Part shown: piece after piece, positions 1 through 39,955 of the stretch | How positions within the stretch are numbered: the stretch's first letter is position 1 | Layout: each line of letters starts with the position of its first letter | Origin: a virus | Virus record (IMG/VR): IMGVR_UViG_3300007735_000719 | Span: 1 to 39,955 of that record | Strand: one strand, 5' to 3' | Length of the DNA: 39,955 nucleotides | The notes under the pieces: model-generated | Database searches by the model: none | What the model was told of the DNA's origin: nothing | Seen by the model: only the letters and a program-made list of their open reading frames with translations | Made by a program: the position numbers and the translations under genes

Positions 1-127
1 GCATGGTGGTTGCAACACTGGCGCTACTAACCGGCGAGGTCACCGTCGTGCGGTTGAGCGCGCTTCCGTTCTTGTCTATAACGCCTTGACGAACACCAGT
101 TGCATTTGCCGCGAAGTAAAACTGCGC
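1..127. repeat. Terminal direct repeat R1 (identical to 38414-38540)
   Basis: The first 127 bases are identical to 38414-38540; the next base differs (g at 128, a at 38541). With R2 (1416-1542 = 39829-39955) it brackets the diverged tailspike segment. An exact length of 127 at both ends is typical of the k-mer overlap of a de Bruijn assembly rather than of a biological terminal repeat. Confidence 0.9.
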
Positions 128-1876
128 GCTTATGCGGTAAGTGCCGGGCTCCTTGATGTAGATTTTGTCGGTGTCTGAGGTCGTCGAGTGCAGGCCCTGA
201 TTATCAATGGTGTTGACGTTCCACAGCAACGCCGTGAATGCGTTGTTAGGTATTGACTGCACCGCGCTGCCGGTGACGTAGCATAGGCTCGGGCCTATGT
301 TTGTGAACGCAGTCGTGACGCCCGGCCCAACGGAACACGACACCGCAGTGCTGGCGAGGTTGGTGTTGTAGCCGGCTGTGGTCGGCTGAATCTTGGTGAC
401 GTCGCTGATGAACCCTGCGAGCGTGGTTGGCACCGTTTGGTTGTCGATGACCTCGCATGAGCGAAACCGAACGCCGCGCGGATAGGTGTCGTAAGTGTTT
501 GGCGCAGTGCCAAAAGCGTTGCTGCCCGCCATGACGCGGAAACCCTGCGCAACGCCGACGCCAGCCCCGCCATTGTTCAACACGTTGACCACTTTGCAGC
601 CGACGACATCAATGTTTCCCGTGGCGTATGTCAGCGTCGTGTTGTTGGCATTAGGGGCGCTGATCACAAATCCGCCGCTGCCGGCGTTATTGGCAATGCA
701 GCCGGTAATGAGCCCGTCGTGCGTGACGTTTGCGCACTTAAATCCCCAAGTGTTTGCGTTGTTGGCAGTGCAGCCGCTAATCGTGAAACGACGGTTGCCC
801 TCGTAGTAGGCCGGCGTTGTGCCGCTGATGACCGCTCCGCTGAAGTCGTACCCCTGATCTACCGTAGACGAATTGCAGCCGGTGATCGTGCAGTCCCGAA
901 CCTCAGTGAACAGGAATCCTCGCGTATAGCGCACTGTGGCGACGCTGGCCAGCACGGCGCGCAGGTTGTCGGCGTTGCAATTCGCGACCGTGAAATTCGC
1001 GCAGTCGCTGAAGTCGTAGCCGTTAATGATGTCGTTCGTCGGATCTGGCGTGAACGCCGCGACGCAGTCGCGCACCAGACAGTTTTCGATCACAAACCGC
1101 TTTGACTGACGGACTTGAATGCGGGAGCCGTTGCCGTTGCCGGTCACGGTCACGTTCGTGATTCTGAAGTTCTGGTTGTACGAACCGTCAGCGTTGGTGA
1201 CACGCAGCGCGGACTTGCTGCTGTCGTCGCTGGCCCCGGAGTTTTGCGTCGAGCCCATATCGAACGCACAGTTGTCTATGAACCAGTTGCTGAGGTTGTA
1301 GATCCAGAGCGTCGCCACGCTCGCGGTCGTCGGGCTCAACTGGATAAAATTTGCGTTGCGCAGGCCGACAAACGATGACGGCTGCATGGTGCCGGAAATA
1401 GCGTAAGTCAGCCCACCGCCGTCAACAATTTTGCCGCTTTGAAGCGCCAATAGAACTGCGGCCCGGTCATCCGCCACCCCGTCGCCAATCGCCCCGAAAT
1501 CAAGCGGGCTTACCGCTTCTCGCAGTTTGCCCTGCACCGTGCGCGAGACGGCACCGGTACCGGCGGGGAGGTAGCCCACGCTGTTGCTACCGGAGGAAGC
1601 TAAGAGATCATCTAGCTCAATGGCGCTGATGGCGACCGTCTCATAGCCGGTCTTGGCCACCACAAGGTCGTACAACCCGTTAGCTGCGTAGAACGACACC
1701 TGGCCGGTTGAAGACGATAGAAAAGGGTTGGCCAACGGCGAAACCCCGTTGTCTGAGTACAGCGTAGCTAGTGTCGTTGTGCCGGACACATATACCGTGC
1801 AAGTCGCAGCATCAAGAACCCGAAGCGTCGAGTTGGTTGCCGTGGTGGATGCGATGAAATTAACGTATCTCTGCAC
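1..1876 (-). CDS. Tailspike protein, allele A (3' end cut by window edge)
   Basis: Receptor-binding tailspike of the parallel beta-helix type. I read a GTG start at 1876 with GGAG seven bases upstream. About 110 residues of a virion-attachment region follow, then the junction AVSPLDFGAIGDGVADD, the hallmark of phage pectate-lyase-like spikes. A long Cys/Asn-rich beta-helix (repeated NC, GC and DC turns) and the start of a C1q/TNF-like C-terminal domain come next. The frame is open to base 1, where about 41 residues are missing. Those residues are present in the other copy (38289-39955), which is collinear with this one and only partly identical. The full protein would be about 666 aa. It sits at the end of the head-gene block, just after a small ORF. 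Endoglycosidase activity is plausible for this fold but not shown. Confidence 0.85.
   Translation of the reverse strand, partial: MQRYVNFIASTTATNSTLRVLDAATCTVYVSGTTTLATLYSDNGVSPLANPFLSSSTGQVSFYAANGLYDLVVAKTGYETVAISAIELDDLLASSGSNSVGYLPAGTGAVSRTVQGKLREAVSPLDFGAIGDGVADDRAAVLLALQSGKIVDGGGLTYAISGTMQPSSFVGLRNANFIQLSPTTASVATLWIYNLSNWFIDNCAFDMGSTQNSGASDDSSKSALRVTNADGSYNQNFRITNVTVTGNGNGSRIQVRQSKRFVIENCLVRDCVAAFTPDPTNDIINGYDFSDCANFTVANCNADNLRAVLASVATVRYTRGFLFTEVRDCTITGCNSSTVDQGYDFSGAVISGTTPAYYEGNRRFTISGCTANNANTWGFKCANVTHDGLITGCIANNAGSGGFVISAPNANNTTLTYATGNIDVVGCKVVNVLNNGGAGVGVAQGFRVMAGSNAFGTAPNTYDTYPRGVRFRSCEVIDNQTVPTTLAGFISDVTKIQPTTAGYNTNLASTAVSCSVGPGVTTAFTNIGPSLCYVTGSAVQSIPNNAFTALLWNVNTIDNQGLHSTTSDTDKIYIKEPGTYRISAQFYFAANATGVRQGVIDKNGSALNRTTVTSPVSSASVATTM
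1416..1542. repeat. Direct repeat R2 (identical to 39829-39955)
   Basis: These 127 bases are identical to the last 127 bases of the window. The base just before differs (a at 1415, g at 39828). It lies in the AVSPLDFGAIGDG junction region of the tailspike gene, where the attachment region meets the beta-helix. Confidence 0.9.
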
Positions 1877-1887
1877 GGCGAAGACTC

Positions 1888-2052
1888 CTAACAGCGGGCT
1901 TCTGCGCCCTGCCGCCGTTGACGTTTCAACTGGTTGACGGGTGCGAGGTCTTCTGGGCCTCGCACCCATCCGTTCTGCAAGTCGGCCTCGACCTCGGCTT
2001 CCAAGGTAGCCACCTTGGTGCCGTGAACGGGGTGGTAGAGCTTGACGTTCAT
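1888..2052 (-). CDS. Small hypothetical protein before the tailspike
   Basis: A 54-aa charged protein starting MNVKLYHPVHGTKVATLEAE. I chose the ATG at 2052 because residues before it in the same frame look non-coding. It lies between the decoration-type gene and the tailspike start, 11 bases from the latter, so it belongs to the late operon. No Shine-Dalgarno site is convincing, and the product is not recognised. The first half (a short beta-type stretch, then acidic residues) looks protein-like; the tail is Arg/Gln-rich. Confidence 0.5.
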   Translation of the reverse strand: MNVKLYHPVHGTKVATLEAEVEADLQNGWVRGPEDLAPVNQLKRQRRQGAEARC

Positions 2053-2467: not shown

Positions 2468-3679
2468 TTAGCCCCAAATGCGGCAGGCCATCGGCGCCCG
2501 GATGACTGAATAGCCATACAGGACGTCTACGCGGCAAGGCATACGGTCGTTGTTGATGTCGTACTGACGGACGATACGCAGGCTGATGCCGTTATGCACC
2601 TGCCGGGAGGCCATATCGACGCCCTGCGGGAGCAGAAGGTCGGCAGTAGCCAGCGTGATGGCGTCCTTGTGGTACACCAGGTTCTGCGGGTACTGGGTCG
2701 AGGCCGCGCCAACGAAGGTGACCGCCGCACCAGACTGCGGGAACGCATCGATGGTCGCCAGCGCGTTGGTGCTGGTGTACATCGGCGGGCTCACCGACAC
2801 CGTCCAAGTACCGGCCACAGCGGTCGCGTCGGCGGTCGCCACGAACTGCTGAAGCGAGCCAGTGGACTGGCGGGTCTGCGGGTTGACCGAGTTGACGTTG
2901 GCGATGGTGAACACGTCACCGGCCTTGATCGTGGTCGTCACCGCGCCCTGCGACAGCGTGATGGTCGAAGCGCCCTGCGTGCTGATGGTCGCGCCCACGG
3001 TAGTGGATGCGGTCGCGTCGCGGGTGCCGGTGGTGTGCTGGACAATCGACTGAGACATGTTGATCTCGTCATAACCCAGTACGCCTTCGCCCATCATGCC
3101 GTTCTTGAACTGGCGGCTGATGGTGCCGCCCGGATTGAACAAGCCCTTCATGCCTTCGACCAGACCAGCGTTAGCCGCCGGGTTGACGGTGGCATAGCGC
3201 GGCGACATCGGCGCGGCGTACTCGTTCAGCTTCTGCTGACCCTGCAACAGCACCAGCGAGGTCGCCGGGGTGGTGCCAGGGGTGCCGACCGAGCTATAGA
3301 TGCTCTTGTAGGCGTTCGCCACGTCGGCGTCCACGCTAGAGGCCAACTGGCTGATACGCGGCTTCAGCACGCGCTCTGCAAAGTCGTCCAGCTGCATGGT
3401 CAGTTCGGCAGAGGTGAAGTTGATGCCGATATGCTTCTGGCTGGCGACGGTGAGCGTGGTGTACTGCTCGTTGTCGTCCTGCACCTGAAGGGCGGCACCG
3501 TCGGTCACCAGCGCGCGGTCGGGCAGACGGATGCGGAGAGTGGAGCCAATTTTGGCGCCTTCGACAGCAAAGCTGTCATCGTACTGCCGGTTGCAGTTCC
3601 GGGTGATCACCAGATTGTTCTCAAGGATTTCGAGACTCTTACGGGTGATCATGTCAATCGTAAGCAATGAGTTGGCCAT
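2468..3679 (-). CDS. Major capsid protein (P22 gp5-like)
   Basis: A 403-aa coat protein of the P22 gp5 group (P22 gp5 is 430 aa). The N-terminus MANSLLTIDMITRKSLEIL, the region VGATISTQGASTITLSQG and the stretch IRVPMACRIWG-like at the C-terminus (seen as IRAPMACRIWG) fit that family. The protein should adopt the HK97 fold and assemble around the scaffold encoded just upstream. The central Thr/Val-rich part probably corresponds to the inserted domain of P22-type coats. It follows the scaffold gene by 13 bases and precedes a decoration-type gene, the usual order portal, scaffold, coat. Start ATG at 3679. Confidence 0.92.
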   Translation of the reverse strand: MANSLLTIDMITRKSLEILENNLVITRNCNRQYDDSFAVEGAKIGSTLRIRLPDRALVTDGAALQVQDDNEQYTTLTVASQKHIGINFTSAELTMQLDDFAERVLKPRISQLASSVDADVANAYKSIYSSVGTPGTTPATSLVLLQGQQKLNEYAAPMSPRYATVNPAANAGLVEGMKGLFNPGGTISRQFKNGMMGEGVLGYDEINMSQSIVQHTTGTRDATASTTVGATISTQGASTITLSQGAVTTTIKAGDVFTIANVNSVNPQTRQSTGSLQQFVATADATAVAGTWTVSVSPPMYTSTNALATIDAFPQSGAAVTFVGAASTQYPQNLVYHKDAITLATADLLLPQGVDMASRQVHNGISLRIVRQYDINNDRMPCRVDVLYGYSVIRAPMACRIWG

Positions 3680-7926: not shown

Positions 7927-8168
7927 CTCCTGAGCGACGCCTTGGCCCGCTCGCCGTCCTTCGCCTTCGCGGCCACCGCGCCCATGCGGGCGCAGAAACT
8001 TGCCTTGCGGCCCTTGTCCGCGTCCGTCTTCGGGTTCGGCGCCGGCGCCTTCAACTTGCTGCCCGTTTCGCGGTTGTACTTTTCCCGCCCTTTGGCGGTC
8101 AGGCCAGCGCCTTTGCTGGCCGGCAGCTTTTCGCCGCGCCCCACACTAAGCGAGACGCTTTTTTTCAT
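7911..8168 (-). CDS. Small basic conserved phage protein, DUF6321-like
   Basis: An 85-aa basic protein with the pattern GAGLTAKGREKYNRETGSKLKAP and SFCARMGAV, followed by ASLRRWKC near the end. I recognise this pattern as a widespread short phage protein (DUF6321-like) of unknown function, often located between terminase and portal genes. The invariant Cys in SFCAR and the C-terminal Trp-Lys-Cys are present. ATGA overlap with the upstream gene. The family name is from memory and should be checked. Confidence 0.75.
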   Translation of the reverse strand: MKKSVSLSVGRGEKLPASKGAGLTAKGREKYNRETGSKLKAPAPNPKTDADKGRKASFCARMGAVAAKAKDGERAKASLRRWKCP

Positions 8169-8578
8169 CGGCAGTGGATGAGCGCGAAGTTGATGCCCAC
8201 CGCTTCCGCCAGCGCGCCGGCCGTGGTGTTCCGCAGCGTGATGCTGGCCGTGCCCGCGCCCAGCGCGTCAACCCACAGGTTGTACGAAGCGGCGGTGGCG
8301 CCGGCGGCCACGTTCAGGATCAGCACGTCGTTGGCGCTGATCAGGTTGTTGTTCAGCGTGAACGACACGTTGGTCGTCGCGCCGAGGCTGGCCGCGTTCA
8401 TCGTAATGCGGCCCGCCGACTTGTTCAGCGTCACGGCGGTGGACTTGCTGGTCGCTTGCGTCACAGTGCCCTGCGCGGCGGTGGTGTAGCCCAGCTCGCG
8501 GTCGGACAGAATGACGTCCGAACCGTTAATCTCCTGATCCGCGTAAGCAACGCCAATCGGTTTCGTATTGCTGCTCAT
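8165..8578 (-). CDS. Small protein carrying a tail-fibre-type C-terminal domain
   Basis: A 137-aa protein whose last 100 residues closely resemble the C-terminal domain of the tail fibre at 34574-35827. Shared segments include VTQATxKSTAVTL, ITMNxAxL, VSFxLNNxL and EAVxINFA (x marks differences). The first 37 residues are a short unique leader. The domain is probably an all-beta trimerising or capping fold. The gene lies between the large terminase and the portal, so the product may be a head fibre or head-surface protein. Stop and next start overlap as ATGA. Confidence 0.8.
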   Translation of the reverse strand: MSSNTKPIGVAYADQEINGSDVILSDRELGYTTAAQGTVTQATSKSTAVTLNKSAGRITMNAASLGATTNVSFTLNNNLISANDVLILNVAAGATAASYNLWVDALGAGTASITLRNTTAGALAEAVGINFALIHCR

Positions 8579-10108: not shown

Positions 10109-11044
10109 TTACTCGGGCAGCCCGCGGCCTAACACGACAATTTTGTCGTACACCGGATGCTCTTGTTTGCCGTATCGTATTTTTCCTACCACGTTTCCAA
10201 GATGAACGTCACCTTTCACGGTGGGCCTGAGTCGGGGTTCGTCGCCTTTTGCGTATCGGCTTAAATTGACGCCTGTAGGGTATTCCACCGACAACGCGTA
10301 TTTATGCCCTTGCTCGCCTTTAGGGGCGCTGTGCTGAACGGTGATCAGCTTAAAGTCGCCCGGCGGATTGGCGGGGTATCCTTCCGGCACGTCAACCCAC
10401 GACCAGCCGGAGTTTTTCCGCGCCAAATTAGTTTTGACCGTGCTACCGGCAATTCGGGACGACGCGGGGGTAAGCGAAGACATTTCTTCTGACACCATGA
10501 ACGACGCTTTGCCGTCTGGCGCTACGCGGATGCTAGCGGCTGACGGCGTTATGCCAGTCAAATCCGTCAGGTCGCTTGGCACCAAATACCGGCCGCCGGG
10601 CTCATACCCCGCCGCGCCAAATCGCGGTTTGTATTCTTTGCTTGCCGGGTCTAACCAGCGTTGAGGCGCGGGCACAACGGGTTTGGTTGTTGCGGGCATA
10701 GGCACGTCAGGCAGTCCGCGAATTGCCGCGCCCATCCCCAGCGTTCCCGCTCCTGCTTTAGGCCCGAATGGAATGCCGCCGGTCATGGCCGCGCCGGCAA
10801 AGCCCATAGCATCCTCGGGCGTGGTCTGACGGCCCATCAGCGCCTGCCGTGGCGTACTGATCGTCGAGTCTATGCCCGCCAGCAGTTTCGCCAGAATGGC
10901 GTTGCCCGTCGCCTGATACCCTGACTTCTCGGGCTGCGGCGCGAACCGGCTGAAGATGGGCGTGACCGGGTAGTTGATGTTGCCGTCCTCGTCCATCGTC
11001 ACCAGCGCATTCTGCGGCTGCGGCGCCAGCATGTTACGGGGCAT
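10109..11044 (-). CDS. Unknown protein between small and large terminase
   Basis: A 311-aa protein. I prefer ATG at 11044 (GAGG six bases upstream) over GTG at 11056. The N-terminal 140 residues are Gly/Ala/Pro-rich and resemble the low-complexity leaders of phage virion proteins, with QPEKSGYQATGNAILAKLLAG. The C-terminal 170 residues form a compact beta-rich domain with RWLDPASKEYKPRFGAAGYE, WSWVDVPEGYP and KYALSVEYPTG. I do not recognise the family. It overlaps the small terminase by 11 bases and ends 3 bases before the large terminase. Its place suggests a packaging or virion role, or a cargo gene inserted between the two. Confidence 0.8.
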   Translation of the reverse strand: MPRNMLAPQPQNALVTMDEDGNINYPVTPIFSRFAPQPEKSGYQATGNAILAKLLAGIDSTISTPRQALMGRQTTPEDAMGFAGAAMTGGIPFGPKAGAGTLGMGAAIRGLPDVPMPATTKPVVPAPQRWLDPASKEYKPRFGAAGYEPGGRYLVPSDLTDLTGITPSAASIRVAPDGKASFMVSEEMSSLTPASSRIAGSTVKTNLARKNSGWSWVDVPEGYPANPPGDFKLITVQHSAPKGEQGHKYALSVEYPTGVNLSRYAKGDEPRLRPTVKGDVHLGNVVGKIRYGKQEHPVYDKIVVLGRGLPE

Positions 11045-14214: not shown

Positions 14215-14326
14215 GCCCTGCGGCCTGCGGCCTGCGGCCTGCGCCCTGCGGCCTGCGCCCTGCGCCCTGCGCCCTGCGCCCTGCGCCCTGCGCCCTGCGC
14301 CCTGCGCCCTGCGCCCAGCGGCCTGG
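14215..14326. repeat. Heptamer array, 16 units of GSCCTGC
   Basis: Sixteen back-to-back 7-bp units starting at 14215, mostly GCCCTGC with some GGCCTGC; the last two are degenerate (GCCCAGC, GGCCTGG). No unit is lost or shifted. The array starts directly after the terminator T-run. Ala/Arg/Pro ORFs read through it on both strands, but they are by-products of the repeat. Possible roles are an iteron-type binding array, a structural element or a replication-slippage expansion. Confidence 0.9.
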
Positions 14327-24039: not shown

Positions 24040-24965
24040 GCGTCTGTAGCGGCATTGAGGCCGCTACGGTCGCCTGGCACGAATTGGGATGGGAGCCGGT
24101 CGCGTTTTCGGAGATCGAATCGTTCCCCTGCAAGGTGCTGGCGCACCACTACCCGGACGTCCCCAACTGGGGAGACATGACCAAGTTCAAGGAATGGCCT
24201 GATGCAACAATTGATGCTCTTGTCGGAGGAACCCCCTGCCAGTCTTTCAGCGTCGCCGGACTGCGACAGGGACTTGAAGACCCACGCGGCGAACTCATGC
24301 TTACCTATCTTGCAATCGCTGCACGTTACCGGCCTAGATGGGTTATCTGGGAGAACGTCCCCGGTGTCCTGTCATCCAACGAAGGACGAGATTTTGGTGC
24401 CTTCCTCGGGGCGTTGGGGCAGCTGGGGTATGGGTGGGCCTACCGGGTGCTGGACGCTCAATGGTTCGGAGTGCCCCAGCGACGGCGCAGAGTCTTCGTT
24501 GTCGGCAGTCTTGCAGACCAGCGGAGTGCAGCCGCAGTTCTTTTTGAGCGCGAGAGCGTGCTCGGGCTTCCTGCGAAGGAGCGAAGCGAAAATGCACCCG
24601 ATGCTGGTCTGGGCGATGAAGTGCGCTGTCTCGGGTGCGGAGTGATGTGGCAGCCTGACGGTGGCCTAGAGTGCTGCCCGATGTGCGGGGCGCTGCAATC
24701 ATGGGCGGCGCAGACATGCGGAACCATTTCTGACGGCGCACATATGGGCGGCGGGCTGAACGGTCAGGATGCGACCAGCGGCAGACTGCTGGTGCATACC
24801 GGGTTCCCGCGCCGACTGACCCCGCTTGAATGCGAGCGCTTGCAGGGATTCCCGGACGGCTACACAGACATTCCCGGCGCGAAGGATGGCCCCAGATACA
24901 AGGCACTGGGCAACAGCATGGCGGTGCCGTGTATGCGTTGGATCGGAGAGCGGATATGCAACTGA
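24021..24965 (+). CDS. dcm: DNA cytosine-5 methyltransferase with zinc-ribbon insert
   Basis: A 314-aa C5 methyltransferase. Motif I is SVCSGIEAATVAW (7-19), motif IV GGTPCQSFSVAG with catalytic Cys73, motif VI ENVPG (111-115), motif VIII QRRRRVFVVG (153-162), motif IX RRLTPLECERLQGFP (264-278) and motif X YKALGNSMAVP (293-303). The target-recognition region is very short and carries four Cys, CLGCG (203, 206) and CCPMCG (218-223), which looks like a zinc ribbon. No cognate restriction enzyme is present. It probably shields phage DNA from host enzymes. AGGAGG lies ahead of ATG 24021. Confidence 0.93.
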   Translation: MAIKYLSVCSGIEAATVAWHELGWEPVAFSEIESFPCKVLAHHYPDVPNWGDMTKFKEWPDATIDALVGGTPCQSFSVAGLRQGLEDPRGELMLTYLAIAARYRPRWVIWENVPGVLSSNEGRDFGAFLGALGQLGYGWAYRVLDAQWFGVPQRRRRVFVVGSLADQRSAAAVLFERESVLGLPAKERSENAPDAGLGDEVRCLGCGVMWQPDGGLECCPMCGALQSWAAQTCGTISDGAHMGGGLNGQDATSGRLLVHTGFPRRLTPLECERLQGFPDGYTDIPGAKDGPRYKALGNSMAVPCMRWIGERICN

Positions 24966-26251
24966 GAACCTACCAGAAGGACGCCGCCCAGTTCCTGCGC
25001 TTGACCCCGCGCAGCATGGTGCTGGCGCCGGTCGGCGCCGGCAAGACCGCGACCGCGCTGACGGCCATGCAGGCGGCGCTGGCGGCCGGGCAGGTACGTC
25101 GGTGGCTGGTCGTCGCACCGAAGCGCGTGGTGACCGCTGTGTGGCCCGTGGAGGCGCCCATCTGGGCGCCCGGCATGACGGTCGCCCTGTCCATCGGCAC
25201 GCCGGCCCAGCGGCTGGCAGCGGTGCAGTCGGACGCGCAGGTCGTGGTGACCAACTACGACAACCTGCAATGGCTGGCGACGCAGCGGATGGACTTCGAC
25301 GGCGTGGTGTTCGATGAACTCACCCGGCTGAAGAACCCGTCCGGCAAGCGGTTCAAGGCGATTGCAAAGGCGCTGGCGCCGATACAGGTGCGGTGGGGTC
25401 TGACCGGGTCGTTCACGTCCAACGGGCTGGAGGATGTGTTCGGGCAGTGCAAGATCGTGGACGAGCACCTGCTCGGCCGCAGCAAGGGCGCGTTCCTGCA
25501 ACAGTACTTCTACTGCGTCAGCCGGGAGTACAACGACTGGGCGCCGGTGCCGGGCTCGTTGGAGAAGGTCATGGCCCGCATCAAGCCCGCCACCTTCGTG
25601 CTGGAAAACCGCGAGTACGCCGATACTTTGCCGCCTTGCCATACGGTCGCGGTGCGGATGCCGCTGGACGACCGCCAGCCATATGAGGATATGAAGTCCA
25701 AGTTCGTCGCGGAGTTCGGCGACGTCAAGGCGCTGGCGGTCAACGCAGGCACGGTGATCGGAAAGCTCCAGCAGATGTCCGCCGGGTTCGTCTACAGCAA
25801 CGGCGAGACGCACTGGTTCTCGCAACACAAGCTGGAACGGCTGGACGAAATACTTGCCGAAAACCAGTTCGCGCCTACAATAATCGTTTACAACTATCAG
25901 GCCGAACTGGCCGCGCTCAAGGCGCGGTACGGCGCTAGGGCGGTGACGCTGGACGATGATCGTGCAATCGAGCGATGGAACTGTGGCAAGGTGTCAATCC
26001 TGCTGCTGCACCCCAAGTCAGCCGGGCACGGGCTCAACCTGCAACACGGCGGGTCAAAGATGGTGTTCATGTCGCTGCCTTGGTCGCTGGAACTGTACGA
26101 GCAGACCATCGGCCGGCTGCACCGGAGCGGGCAAAAGCACGACGTTTGGATCTATGTCCTTCTGGCGGACAAGACGGTAGACGACAGCATCTGGCGTGCG
26201 CTGCACGACAAGCAAGACGTATCTAAATTGGCACTGGAGGCACTACGATGA
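24956..26251 (+). CDS. SNF2-type DNA helicase/translocase
   Basis: A 431-aa superfamily 2 helicase of the SNF2 group. Walker A is APVGAGKT (24-31), motif II VVFDELTR (117-124) with Asp120-Glu121, motif III GLTGSFTSNG (148-157), motif V KSAGHGLNLQ (354-363) and motif VI QTIGRLHRSGQ (383-393). The length is that of the short phage type. It overlaps the methyltransferase stop by ten bases. A role in replication, recombination or remodelling of protein-bound DNA is likely; its substrate is unknown. The last codons overlap a 58-aa gene by ATGA. Confidence 0.9.
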   Translation: MQLRTYQKDAAQFLRLTPRSMVLAPVGAGKTATALTAMQAALAAGQVRRWLVVAPKRVVTAVWPVEAPIWAPGMTVALSIGTPAQRLAAVQSDAQVVVTNYDNLQWLATQRMDFDGVVFDELTRLKNPSGKRFKAIAKALAPIQVRWGLTGSFTSNGLEDVFGQCKIVDEHLLGRSKGAFLQQYFYCVSREYNDWAPVPGSLEKVMARIKPATFVLENREYADTLPPCHTVAVRMPLDDRQPYEDMKSKFVAEFGDVKALAVNAGTVIGKLQQMSAGFVYSNGETHWFSQHKLERLDEILAENQFAPTIIVYNYQAELAALKARYGARAVTLDDDRAIERWNCGKVSILLLHPKSAGHGLNLQHGGSKMVFMSLPWSLELYEQTIGRLHRSGQKHDVWIYVLLADKTVDDSIWRALHDKQDVSKLALEALR

Positions 26252-34573: not shown

Positions 34574-35827
34574 TTAGCTCGTCGCCGAGATGATGGCGAA
34601 GTTTATCAGCACTGCCTCTGATCTGCTTGTGCCGCTGTAATTAGTTACGCGAATGCGGGCAGTGCCCGCGCCGGTTACTTGCGCGGTGCAGGAATAAGTG
34701 TCGGCGGTTCCTGCGGGGCCGATATTTACGATCAAAGTATCGGTTGCCGCGAGTAAAGCATTGTTCAGAATAAAAGACACTGAAGCGCCGCCCGCAAGCG
34801 CCGCGGTGTTCATCGTGATTACGCCGCATGCCGCGTCTAACGTCACCGCTGTGGATTTATTGGTGGCTTGCGTGACCGAACCGCCAGGGTTACTAGTTCC
34901 GCTAATGCTAACGCTGTACCCCAAAACGCCTTGTGTGCATTTAACGCCTATAACGCCGGAGGAATTGTATGCAGCGGCTACCCACAGAGTTGATGAAAAC
35001 TCGCAGTCGCCTTCATCTGACTGAAAAGCTAGTTGGTTGTTTATGGTGACGTTTGTACCAGCATAAATTACGCCAAGCACATGAAAAGATATGGAGCGGT
35101 CATAAGTCACTGACACGTTTGTGGCATTTACAGAAGATGAGCCGTAAAGATTGCCGTTTATCTCACCATTTACCGCAAAAGCCGGCGATTCCGAATCGTT
35201 GTAAATTTTGCCAATAAAGTTTGAATTGATCGCGATACCGGAGCTTCCAGTTCGCCCGTTAAGCACGGGAGCGCCGCTCAAAATAAAGCAGCCATTGCTA
35301 TTCATTGTGAAGGTATTAGCGTAACCAGGAGTGCTTTGCATTGACCGCAAAACAAGGCTAGTTCCGCTGCCTTCCGCACCAGACACAATTACCGGCACCG
35401 TAACTTGTGTAAATGTAGGTGACGATGTCCAAGTTGGCGCGTTTGCGCCGTCGCTAACTAGCACGTCGCCCGGCTCACCAACAGTTGAAAAACTGTACGC
35501 CGCGCCGGTGCCATAGGCCACTGATCCGGCCGCGCCAGAAATATCAGTCCACGCCGGCGCGCCAGCTCCGTTGCTGGTCAAAAATTGCCCCGTTTCCCCG
35601 GTTGTGGTGAACCTGTACGACTGACCATCTCCATATGCCACGGCGCCAGCCAGCGGCGTAGAAGTAGAGTTGGTTCCGCCATTTGCGATTGGCGTCACGC
35701 CCGTTCCGCCGCCGGTGTTGGTGAACAGATTGAGAAAAAATCGATACCACTCTCGGGACACTTGACCGTTCCGCGCATCCAGAAAAGGAACGCGAGGCGG
35801 CGTGATGTTGGTAGTGGGCTCAGCCAT
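34574..35827 (-). CDS. Tail fibre or adaptor protein with two internal repeats
   Basis: A 417-aa protein. I use ATG 35827, which overlaps the gp10-like stop; a TTG at 35842 is possible. The N-terminus has ITPPRVPFLDARNGQVSREW with RFFLNLF, a common fibre-attachment stretch. Two repeats of about 35 residues follow (AVAYGDGQSYRFTTTGETGQ and SVAYGTGAAYSFSTVGEPGD). The C-terminal 100 residues match the domain of the 137-aa protein at 8165-8578. It probably forms a trimeric fibre attached to the gp10-like neck. Confidence 0.85.
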   Translation of the reverse strand: MAEPTTNITPPRVPFLDARNGQVSREWYRFFLNLFTNTGGGTGVTPIANGGTNSTSTPLAGAVAYGDGQSYRFTTTGETGQFLTSNGAGAPAWTDISGAAGSVAYGTGAAYSFSTVGEPGDVLVSDGANAPTWTSSPTFTQVTVPVIVSGAEGSGTSLVLRSMQSTPGYANTFTMNSNGCFILSGAPVLNGRTGSSGIAINSNFIGKIYNDSESPAFAVNGEINGNLYGSSSVNATNVSVTYDRSISFHVLGVIYAGTNVTINNQLAFQSDEGDCEFSSTLWVAAAYNSSGVIGVKCTQGVLGYSVSISGTSNPGGSVTQATNKSTAVTLDAACGVITMNTAALAGGASVSFILNNALLAATDTLIVNIGPAGTADTYSCTAQVTGAGTARIRVTNYSGTSRSEAVLINFAIISATS

Positions 35828-37250
35828 TTGTAGACGACACAAGCAATTCGGCGCCGACGATGGATATCTTGACAGGATCAGTGCCGGACACTTCGTAGAC
35901 TCGGTCGCGAAGTTTTTCGGTCATACCCAATCGCCGCCAAATAACCCGGGTGCCATACGCGCCTAACTCGCCCATTGAGGCCCAATGTTCGTTCGACCAG
36001 GTGTGCCCGCCATCGTCTGACCAGCGCAGCATGACCTGCGGGTTCGACCCTTGGCCGGTCACCAGACCAACACCCGTTTCGCAGTCTAGCTGCAACGAAT
36101 GATGCGCGGTGCGCTTTAAAGTGTTCTGATCTGACGCCAATGCACGCCAAGACCGCAACCACTTTTGCGGGGCACCGTTATCGGTAAACACGTTTAGGTC
36201 AAAAGCGTACAAGTTGCCGTTGCCATAATCGCCGACCACGACTTCACCGCCGTAGTTCATCTGGCAGTTTGACGCATGGCGGTAAAACTGACCGTTCTCA
36301 AATCTGGCACGTTCATGCCAACCGCCTGTCGCTACGTCATAAACCCAAGTCGCGTTTCCAGTAGGGAAAGACAGCACATAAAACGAATGCCCGTCTTGCT
36401 GGTAAGTGTACCCAATAGCGTCAGAGATGGTCGCATAGCTCTGGATTGCGTACTCCACGGCGTGCGTGCTGATGCGCTGGCCGGTGTAACCGTTTGCTCG
36501 ATACACCATGCCAGTGCCGCGCGCATCAGCGCCGAGCCAGAAAAGCCCGTTGTCCATTTTGGCTACTGAGTACGCCGCCGCGCAGCCAAGTTCGTTAAAA
36601 GCGCCTTGAATGCGCGTTAGCGGAAAATCCGCAGCGCCGGAGTCATACCAAACTTCGACCGAATTAGTGCCAAACAGCCACGCTTCGCGGTGGTCAATTG
36701 CAACGGCAATCAGCCCGTCAGGAGAGCCTTCCGCGCTGGCAAAATCCAAAGGATCTACCGACGTACCGTCTAATAGCTGGGTGACCCAAATTTTTTGCGA
36801 ATTAGGCTCATTAAACACAAAGTACCCATCTAGATACCCCACTGTGACCGCGCCGGGAAAATCAGGATCGGTAATTTCCGCAAACACGTTCGTGCGGGCG
36901 TTGTAGATATAGCTGCGCGGGTTACACGCCACAAATAATTGCGTGCCGTTATCAGACATGCTGACCGGCCCACTTCCTGACACCGTGCCAAGCGCCGTCG
37001 CACCCCAGGCCGCGTTTACTTGGTACAGCGTATTGCCAGACACGGCATAACCGTACCCGCCAAACTGCCATAGCCCGCGCACCGGGCCGCCACCAAGCGC
37101 CGCTAACAGCCTTAGCCCTGGCGCGCGGTTAAGAAAACCGGCGGTCTTGCCGTTTTCGGGCGTTGCCTCGGGGTACAGGTTCACCATACGGTTGTCCGCA
37201 GCGTTAACGCTGCGGGCCACATAGGCTTGTCCCAGAATGGGCGTTTTCAT
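35820..37250 (-). CDS. Tail-neck protein (P22 gp10-like DNA stabilisation protein)
   Basis: A 476-aa protein, nearly the same length as P22 gp10 (472 aa). The typical start MKTPILGQAYVARSVNAADN with RMVNLYPEATPENGKT is followed by repeated beta blades (LWQFGGYGYAVSGNTLYQV, VSMSDNGTQLFVACN, YLDGYFVFNEPNSQKIW, WLFGTNSVEVWYDSG). Gp10 hexamers form the lower tail hub that plugs the packaged DNA and carries the spikes. ATGA-type overlaps with both neighbours. Confidence 0.92.
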   Translation of the reverse strand: MKTPILGQAYVARSVNAADNRMVNLYPEATPENGKTAGFLNRAPGLRLLAALGGGPVRGLWQFGGYGYAVSGNTLYQVNAAWGATALGTVSGSGPVSMSDNGTQLFVACNPRSYIYNARTNVFAEITDPDFPGAVTVGYLDGYFVFNEPNSQKIWVTQLLDGTSVDPLDFASAEGSPDGLIAVAIDHREAWLFGTNSVEVWYDSGAADFPLTRIQGAFNELGCAAAYSVAKMDNGLFWLGADARGTGMVYRANGYTGQRISTHAVEYAIQSYATISDAIGYTYQQDGHSFYVLSFPTGNATWVYDVATGGWHERARFENGQFYRHASNCQMNYGGEVVVGDYGNGNLYAFDLNVFTDNGAPQKWLRSWRALASDQNTLKRTAHHSLQLDCETGVGLVTGQGSNPQVMLRWSDDGGHTWSNEHWASMGELGAYGTRVIWRRLGMTEKLRDRVYEVSGTDPVKISIVGAELLVSSTNG

Positions 37251-37996
37251 CAGTAGTTGCCAGCAAACACGTTAAATCGCTGGCGAGTTCCTACAATGCT
37301 GTACGGCAGCCCCATGATGTCGCCGGGGCTGTTGATGCGCTTCAGATTGCGTTTGCTGGTCATCGCAATGCGTTTGACTTGCGGCGGCGGCTCCACGCCA
37401 AACTCCGGTGCGATTTCGCAAGCCAGATTGTACTTAAACGCTCGCAGGTAACCCGGCGGGAACAGCAGCGGCGTGACCAGCGTCGCCGGCTGGATCAGTT
37501 CTTCCACCGAAATGAAGTGCCACTCCAGCGCCCGGGTCGGCACCGGGTAGACGTACATCTCAATGTCGGGATACGTCATGTTCAGCCAGATGACTTGCGG
37601 GTAGGTGCTGGTGACCGTCTTGACCGCAATGCCATCGTACTGTTGCTGGTTGATCTGCTTGATGCCGAACGAAATGCCGGTCGTCGCGTCGCGAAAGTAC
37701 GTTGAGTCATCAAGCTGGATGGGCCGGTTGCCCTCAAAATCACCGGACGGCCCCAGCGTGCGGCTGATGGCGTTGGCGGGCCAAGTGAACACCTGGTCTT
37801 GCGTAGAGAAGATGCTGAGCCGCTCGGTGTTCCACGAGTCGATCATCTGATTGAGTGCGGCCAGTGCGTCGATAGACGTAGCCGCCGACGGCGTCTCGCC
37901 TTCCGCAAGCTGCCCAATCAGTCGGAGCGCACCGTTAATCTGCTCTCCTGCCGTGGTTTCGCCGGCAAACAAAACCGATGGAACAATGATGGTCAT
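37250..37996 (-). CDS. Head-to-tail adaptor (P22 gp4-like)
   Basis: A 248-aa protein of the gp4 type, longer than P22 gp4 (166 aa). Features are GEQINGALRLIGQLAEGE, DALAALNQMIDSWNTERLSI, FTWPANAISRTLGPSGDFEG and YLRAFKYNLACEIAPEFGVE. It should bind beneath the portal and receive the gp10-like hub encoded next. No transmembrane part. Its stop and the gp10-like start share one base, and its start overlaps the upstream gene. Confidence 0.87.
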   Translation of the reverse strand: MTIIVPSVLFAGETTAGEQINGALRLIGQLAEGETPSAATSIDALAALNQMIDSWNTERLSIFSTQDQVFTWPANAISRTLGPSGDFEGNRPIQLDDSTYFRDATTGISFGIKQINQQQYDGIAVKTVTSTYPQVIWLNMTYPDIEMYVYPVPTRALEWHFISVEELIQPATLVTPLLFPPGYLRAFKYNLACEIAPEFGVEPPPQVKRIAMTSKRNLKRINSPGDIMGLPYSIVGTRQRFNVFAGNY

Positions 37997-38289
37997 GCGC
38001 GGTTACTCCCGATATAGCCGACAATGAACACGGCCACAATGGGCAGCGTCAGGTTCCAAAACCACGAATGCACGTCCCACACCCGCCGGTCGGCCCAGCC
38101 CCACCACGGCAGGTTCGCGCGGCGGCCGTTACCGTAGTGCTCGATCCAGCGGTATTCGGCCTGCGCGTGCTCGCGGCCGATGAACACGCCAGCGCCCAGC
38201 GCCGCACCGGCCCACCAGTCGCCGGTTGCTAGGCCGATGGCTGCTTGCAGGGCAAGAGCGATAAGAAGGTGTTCTAGTTCGTGCAGCAT
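37993..38289 (-). CDS. Small membrane protein of unknown function
   Basis: A 98-aa protein with hydrophobic segments at about 7-37 and 80-95, separated by a charged and aromatic part (REHAQAEYRWIEHYGNGRRA, NLPWWGWADRRVWDVHSW). I recall similar short membrane proteins in several podovirus tail regions, always hypothetical. The start overlaps the tailspike stop by one base and the end overlaps the gp4-like start by four. A role in lysis or in DNA entry is possible, but nothing decides it. Confidence 0.7.
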   Translation of the reverse strand: MLHELEHLLIALALQAAIGLATGDWWAGAALGAGVFIGREHAQAEYRWIEHYGNGRRANLPWWGWADRRVWDVHSWFWNLTLPIVAVFIVGYIGSNRA

Positions 38290-39955
38290 TAATCGACCTT
38301 CTGCACCATAAAGTTGGCTTCGTTATTCGCGTGGTCTAACGCCCCGCCGGAGTTTTGGTAGACACGAACCGAGTAATAATCGCCGGGCACTGCGGAATTG
38401 ATAACTGACGAATGCATGGTGGTTGCAACACTGGCGCTACTAACCGGCGAGGTCACCGTCGTGCGGTTGAGCGCGCTTCCGTTCTTGTCTATAACGCCTT
38501 GACGAACACCAGTTGCATTTGCCGCGAAGTAAAACTGCGCACTGACTCGATAGGTGCCGGCTTCTTTGATGTAGATTTTGTCCGTGTCGGTAGTCGTTGA
38601 GTGCAGCCCCTGATTGTCAATCGCGTTGGTGCTCCAGAGCAGCGTCGTAAACGCTGCATTAGGTATTGACTGCACCGCGCTGCCGGTCACATAACACAGG
38701 CTCGGCCCAATGCCGACAAACCCAGTTGTGACACCCGGCCCGACTGAACACGACACCGCAGTGCTGGCGATGTTGGTGTTGTAGCCGGCGGTTGTCGGCA
38801 GGATTTTGGTAACGTCGCTGACAAACGCTTGAACAGTGGTGGGCACAGCTTGAGTATCAATGACCTCGCACGACCGAAAACGAATGCCGCGAGGATAAGT
38901 ATCGAACGTGTTTGGGGCTGTGCCCATAGCAGCAGATCCCGCCATCACGCGGAACGCTTGCGCCTGACCAACTCCAAGCCCACCAGTGCCAAGCACGTTT
39001 ACCGCTTTGCAGCCCACGACATCAATGTTGCCTGTTGCATATGCCGGCGTCGTGCTGGCTGCGGCGGGCGCACTGAATACAAACCCGCACGAACCGCTAT
39101 TGTTTGCGATGCAGCCCGTTACTAGCCCGTCGTGCGTCACGTTGGCAAACTTAAAGCCGTAGGTGTTTCCGTTGTTGGCAGTGCAACCGCTAATCGTAAA
39201 ACGACGATTGCCTTCGTAATACGCGGGGGTCGTGCCGGAAATTACCGCGCCGCTGAAGTCGTAGCACTGGTCTGTATTGGTGGAATTGCAGCCAACAATC
39301 GTGCAATCGCGTACCTCGGTAAACAGAAAACCCCGAGTGTATCGAATGGTTGGAACCCCAACCAAAACGGTGAGCAAGCTGTTTACGTTGCAATTTGCCA
39401 CCGTGAAGTTGGCGCAATCAGAAATGTCGAATCCGTTGATAATGTCGTTTGTCGGGTCGGGGGTAAACGCCGCTACGCAGTCCCGCACCAGACAGTTCTC
39501 GATCACAAACCGTTTAGACTGCCTAACCTGAATGCGCGATCCGTTGCCGTTGCCGGTCACCGTCACGTTGGTGATGCGGAAGTTTTCGCAATAAGAGCCT
39601 GTAGCGTTACCAACGCGCAACGCAGACTTGCTGCTGTCGTCGCTGGCCCCGGAGTTTTGCGTCGAGCCCATATCGAACGCACAGTTGTCTATGAACCAGT
39701 TCGACAAGTTGTAGATCCATAACGTGGCGACGCTGGCCGTCGTCGGCGCAAGCTGAACGAAGTTTGCGTTCCGCAGGCCCACAAATGACGTTGGCTGCAT
39801 GGTGCCGGAAATAGCGTAGGTCAGCCCGCCGCCGTCAACAATTTTGCCGCTTTGAAGCGCCAATAGAACTGCGGCCCGGTCATCCGCCACCCCGTCGCCA
39901 ATCGCCCCGAAATCAAGCGGGCTTACCGCTTCTCGCAGTTTGCCCTGCACCGTGC
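38289..39955 (-). CDS. Tailspike protein, allele B (5' end cut by window edge)
   Basis: The C-terminal 553 residues or more of the beta-helix tailspike, from MQGKLREAVSPLDFGAIGDG to the stop at 38289. The beta-helix part has many NC/GC/DC turns; the last 140 residues (IYIKEAGTYRVSAQFYF, RQGVIDKNGSALNRT, YYSVRVYQNSGGALDHANNE) form a C1q/TNF-like trimerisation or binding domain. No true start lies in this stretch; the missing 5' part matches the sequence at 1543-1876 if the genome is circular, giving about 666 aa. It differs from allele A at many sites between the identical 127-bp ends. Confidence 0.88.
   Translation of the reverse strand, partial: TVQGKLREAVSPLDFGAIGDGVADDRAAVLLALQSGKIVDGGGLTYAISGTMQPTSFVGLRNANFVQLAPTTASVATLWIYNLSNWFIDNCAFDMGSTQNSGASDDSSKSALRVGNATGSYCENFRITNVTVTGNGNGSRIQVRQSKRFVIENCLVRDCVAAFTPDPTNDIINGFDISDCANFTVANCNVNSLLTVLVGVPTIRYTRGFLFTEVRDCTIVGCNSTNTDQCYDFSGAVISGTTPAYYEGNRRFTISGCTANNGNTYGFKFANVTHDGLVTGCIANNSGSCGFVFSAPAAASTTPAYATGNIDVVGCKAVNVLGTGGLGVGQAQAFRVMAGSAAMGTAPNTFDTYPRGIRFRSCEVIDTQAVPTTVQAFVSDVTKILPTTAGYNTNIASTAVSCSVGPGVTTGFVGIGPSLCYVTGSAVQSIPNAAFTTLLWSTNAIDNQGLHSTTTDTDKIYIKEAGTYRVSAQFYFAANATGVRQGVIDKNGSALNRTTVTSPVSSASVATTMHSSVINSAVPGDYYSVRVYQNSGGALDHANNEANFMVQKVD
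38414..38540. repeat. Second copy of repeat R1
   Basis: Identical to the first 127 bases of the window. It lies inside the C1q-like part of the tailspike gene, upstream (in coding sense) of the shared last 41 codons. Confidence 0.9.
39829..39955. repeat. Second copy of repeat R2
   Basis: The last 127 bases of the window, identical to 1416-1542. Together with R1 it defines both sides of the diverged tailspike segment. Confidence 0.9.

Follow-up and report, generated by a model that had tools for sequence, protein, structure and literature searches.

The virus record IMGVR_UViG_3300007735_000719 carries tailspike coding sequence at both of its ends, and the two copies differ from one another. 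Does this phage possess two tailspikes, or does the record hold two forms of a single gene? The window that we analysed is the entire record (39,955 bases). It belongs with the P22-like podoviruses, as shown by a P22-type portal gene (P22_portal, E=6e-177), coat and tail accessory genes, and matches to the scaffold, head closure and DNA ejection families. Judged by the portal, the closest named relatives are Phage DSL-LC05 from Dishui Lake (71% identity; 37,569 bp, circular) and Podoviridae sp. ctNMl277 from Manatee Spring (70%; 38,801 bp, circular).

Two incomplete tailspike copies

Positions 1-1542 and 38414-39955 (1542 bases each) align without gaps and with 290 mismatches, in agreement with the initial annotation, which had described an alignment without change of length. 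The first mismatch lies at 128 and the last at 1415, and identity is exact at the outer edges (1-127 equals 38414-38540, and 1416-1542 equals 39829-39955). The alignment thus confirms the earlier observation of exactly 127 identical bases per edge, each followed by a mismatch. Besides these edges, the only repeats of at least 40 bp in the window are one interior run and a short tandem repeat with a 7-bp unit, at 14256-14320. We refer to the left copy as allele A and to the right copy as allele B. The features of the locus are as follows.

1..1969, minus strand: tailspike allele A, with the anchor and the predicted allele-A beta-helix; open at the window start
38289..39955, minus strand: tailspike allele B, with the predicted beta-helix and the C-terminal end including the stop; the anchor is absent and the frame is open at the right edge of the window
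128..1415, minus strand: divergent receptor-binding part of allele A; 290 differences from allele B, ungapped
38541..39828, minus strand: divergent receptor-binding part of allele B
1..127 and 38414..38540, no strand: 127-bp edge on the C-terminal side, a putative k-mer overlap of the assembler
1416..1542 and 39829..39955, no strand: 127-bp edge on the N-terminal side, at the anchor/beta-helix junction
1212..1288 (equal to 39625-39701), no strand: 77-bp stretch of the divergent part over which A and B are identical
1543..1876, minus strand: tailspike anchor (virion attachment), single copy, serving A and B
38289..38413, minus strand: last 41 tailspike codons including the stop, single copy, serving A and B
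37250..37996, minus strand: tail-adaptor-like gene downstream of the tailspike, which follows the capsid side in circular relatives
2468..3679, minus strand: major capsid protein gene, upstream of the tailspike

Both copies share one minus-strand reading frame and lie in direct orientation. The frame at 2-1969 is open at the left window end and lacks the C-terminal end of the protein, and the frame at 38289-39953 is open at the right window end and lacks the anchor. As noted earlier for the attachment region and the last 41 codons, 1543..1876 and 38289..38413 each occur once. When the frames are joined over the window ends, either allele yields a tailspike frame of 697 codons with a stop. The true start is probably the GTG at 1874-1876, because the codons upstream of it overlap another gene and the relatives begin there. 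Taken literally, the contig holds both copies, and a true tandem or terminal duplication would place diverged tailspikes at the two ends of one genome, which the initial annotation had kept as its alternative. However, each copy is incomplete, and on a different side.

The 127-bp edges and probable closure of the genome

We checked the terminal repeats of ten long relatives from the same collection. A near relative of 37,668 bp (G007) has a perfect terminal repeat of 127 bp, and others in this set have repeats of 123 and 126 bp. In a further relative of 39293 bp (G001), the ends at 1-340 and 38954-39293 are 97.9% identical over 340 bp, of which the last 127 bp are exact. This near-repeat lies in and before the scaffold gene, and these ends appear to be the same kind of variant overlap at a different gene. 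The value of 127 is, by these repeats, the assembly k in this collection; the earlier remark that 127 is a usual largest k-mer in short-read assembly finds its support in G007 and G001. In metaSPAdes assemblies a break leaves ends as long as maxK, and one recognised cause of such breaks is variation within the population (PMC10914622, COBRA). The present record resembles those cases, in which breaks at variation leave overlaps equal to the largest k-mer and closed phages show 127-bp repeats. Alleles A and B are the two arms here, and each connects to one shared backbone through overlaps exactly k long (127 bp on either side). Unlike those contigs, one contig here carries both arms of the bubble, so that its two ends differ and the record lacks the end repeat that marks a circle.

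Gene order in relatives supports the view that the window ends join and that the unit would be a circle of 38,413 bp with one tailspike locus. Five uncultured relatives (L005, L008, L031, L020 and L012) each have one tailspike, located between the capsid and tail-adaptor genes. In Phage DSL-LC05 and ctNMl277, both deposited as complete circular genomes, the coat gene is followed by small genes and then by the tail adaptor and head closure genes, and no tailspike is annotated between the coat and tail adaptor genes. The unit length of 38,413 bp fits these circular relatives of 37,569 and 38,801 bp. In L034, a near relative with 96% portal identity, the tailspike is absent from the interval between capsid-side genes and tail adaptor gene (around 10200-10230): a short gene upstream lies no more than about 15 bp from the adaptor gene, and the region is free of N runs. 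This absence has no bearing on alleles A and B.

These observations make a duplication very unlikely, contrary to the alternative raised earlier. The identical stretch at each contig end has a length of exactly 127 bases, the assembly k of the collection, whereas a real duplication gives no reason for the identity to stop 127 bases beyond the last mismatch on both sides. Moreover, the relatives examined for synteny carry one copy at this place, and their gene order closes the window ends.

The record is, with high probability, a single P22-like circle of about 38,413 bp that was opened at the tailspike, from a population with two receptor-binding alleles. The initial annotation had likewise proposed a circular or permuted genome with two tailspike variants that were both walked by the assembler, a model supported by the 127-bp signature, the breaks of length maxK, the single-copy synteny, the unit length and the location of the variable part. 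Two versions of the tailspike's receptor-binding part would have coexisted in the sampled population. In a graph with k=127, A and B would form a bubble, both leaving and rejoining one backbone, and the path of the assembler would have run from A through the backbone to B, stopping where B re-enters the backbone already used. Each contig end would thus carry exactly one 127-bp k-mer of shared sequence. By one backbone we mean only that no other large bubble survived, as the assembler may have collapsed polymorphism elsewhere in it. We infer that A and B reside on different molecules of one population. An exact search of viral_contigs with a 35-mer common to both alleles returned no other record of the same phage with one allele alone. 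Among 80 portal-bearing relatives, we also asked whether contig ends cluster in the tailspike. Ends become more frequent 4.5-5.5 kb downstream of the portal, but most of the contigs behind this rise terminate outside any recognisable tailspike, and the enrichment was therefore not used.

Read as two alleles on one circle, an apparently linear and duplicated record becomes a closed phage genome whose receptor-binding part occurs in two natural forms, and its contig ends should not be annotated as two tailspike genes. Outer edges with a length of exactly k that each recur at a site inside the contig form a simple signature, with which public assemblies could be mined for other such pairs. The assembly effect and tailspike variation are both known kinds of thing; the merit of this case is a clean example, a corrected record and a searchable signature.

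Fold of the tailspike and divergence between the alleles

The fold of the tailspike was assessed from family matches and structure prediction. The tailspike scores just below the cut-off for Pfam Beta_helix (25.8 versus 25.9 bits) and just above that for Pfam End_N_terminal (26.4 versus 26.3 bits), and beta strands are predicted over residues 180-480. The structure prediction (mean pLDDT 51) is usable for the beta-helix and of low confidence elsewhere, and the best fold matches of the model include the CBA120, HK620, Sf6 and P22 tailspikes. The predicted architecture, a right-handed beta-helix after an anchor domain, is shared with these four proteins, but sequence identity to them is low (10-16%) and the model is of low confidence outside the helix. 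The residues that differ between A and B span codons 198 to 613 of the long frame. The variable part thus comprises the predicted beta-helix and the start of the C-terminal part, and these codons, the predicted helix and the fold matches agree with the earlier placement of the changes in these two regions. We infer that A and B bind different receptors or host surface glycans, in which case the record would capture how host recognition varies naturally within a single phage population.

Between the alleles, 64 of the 513 compared residues differ, and 188 of the 290 nucleotide differences fall at third codon positions (dN 0.096, dS 0.79, dN/dS about 0.12). Selection between A and B is evidently purifying, and the pattern indicates a divergence that is old, slow and constrained, not one produced by hypermutation. 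This bears on programmed variation, by which a diversity-generating retroelement, or a recombinase that switches a cassette of alternative tailspike ends, would have produced both forms within one genome. The variable part is indeed the receptor-binding module and lies between identical flanks, as such systems would have it. However, searches of the record for a reverse transcriptase (RVT_1), a resolvase and a tyrosine integrase found no match to any of them, and the third-position differences with their dN and dS values are those of slow, ordinary divergence. As the differences are mostly silent and these enzymes have no match in the record, neither a diversity-generating retroelement nor a switching cassette fits. 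The direct orientation of the copies and the lack of a third cassette in the search also speak against switching, and we regard programmed variation as extremely improbable.

Within the divergent part, the alleles share an identical run of 77 bp (1212-1288), which the initial annotation had not noted. By comparison, randomly spread differences would give a longest run with a median of 23 and a 99th percentile of 39. Relatives are only 78-82% identical to A over the same stretch. This suggests an exchange between alleles A and B. Caution is needed here, as 77 is one of the usual intermediate k values in SPAdes. A and B could be an old polymorphism that is kept by host diversity and still exchanges short tracts, which we hold to be possible but doubtful. 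If so, the record would be a natural case of balancing selection and gene conversion acting on a receptor-binding gene.

Exchange of the receptor-binding module among related phages

L005 and L003 are the full-length relatives closest to this tailspike. Over the flanks (1-127 and 1416-1876), the identity between A and these two is 62-81%, whereas that between A and B is 100%. As these relatives are only 62-81% identical there, the identity of the flanks reflects recent common descent and not constraint. In the interior, A and B are 69-85% identical, which is the divergence seen between different phages. The combination of flanks that are identical where relatives are not with an interior as diverged as between phages indicates that the receptor-binding module is exchanged by homologous recombination between related phages. 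Such an exchange, of the beta-helix/C-terminal module, would have given rise to A and B; of its two crossovers, one would fall within or slightly upstream of the anchor/beta-helix junction and the other within the C-terminal domain.

A conserved N-terminal anchor with an exchangeable receptor-binding part was also found in other phages. L008 is a near-sister of the present phage (capsid 99% and portal 99.7% identical); its tailspike (L008 4723-6696) joins the same anchor to an unrelated distal module. L006 and L135 carry the distal module of the present phage behind other anchors; their contigs gave no BLAST match to capsid, portal, terminase or head-closure genes, and L006 holds a long frame of another kind. 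The tailspikes at L135 5289-7283 and L005 4135-6144, which come from different phage backbones, form a clear recombination mosaic: their identity is about 97% over some segments and about 75% over the rest. The L008, L135/L005 and L006/L003 comparisons all switch at about window positions 1430-1490, next to the boundary between A and B, where the switch lies at or upstream of 1415, at the anchor/beta-helix junction. Four independent pairs thus switch near this junction.

The finding of the same module on unrelated backbones, and the fact that A and B are as unlike as the spikes of different phages, could also mean that the assembler joined two phage species with recently shared flanks, the backbone being that of one species only. 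Against such a chimera, A and B run into one and the same anchor and C-terminal end, with 127 or more identical bases in stretches where the identity to other phages is 62-81%, which argues that allele B sits in nearly the same flanks. A backbone that differed further out would also have left more branch points near the spike. We consider a chimera of this kind very improbable.

The reading of two alleles in one population has parallels elsewhere. Modular exchange of tailspike receptor-binding domains is known from coli phages (PMC10408124); here, in contrast, A and B switch on the C-terminal side while still inside the gene and have the last codons in common, and the exchange is visible within one population. 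In the metaviromic islands of marine phages (PMC3909814), the receptor-recognition part of tail genes likewise varies within otherwise conserved populations. Those islands were recognised by under-recruitment of reads, whereas here two complete alternative sequences are found in one P22-like record.

A contig of Sphingomonas sp. S2M10 (L132 10001-11368) encodes a relative of the receptor-binding part with 45% identity, which may be a faint hint at the host group. Elsewhere in the window, an SNF2/DEAD-type helicase gene (24830-26251) is encoded on the plus strand, whereas the structural genes are on the other one. Two genes that are far apart, 8165-8578 and 34574-35842, both match the uncharacterised phrog_18251 via its C-terminal part, and the pair possibly reflects a small paralogue of a tail-region protein.
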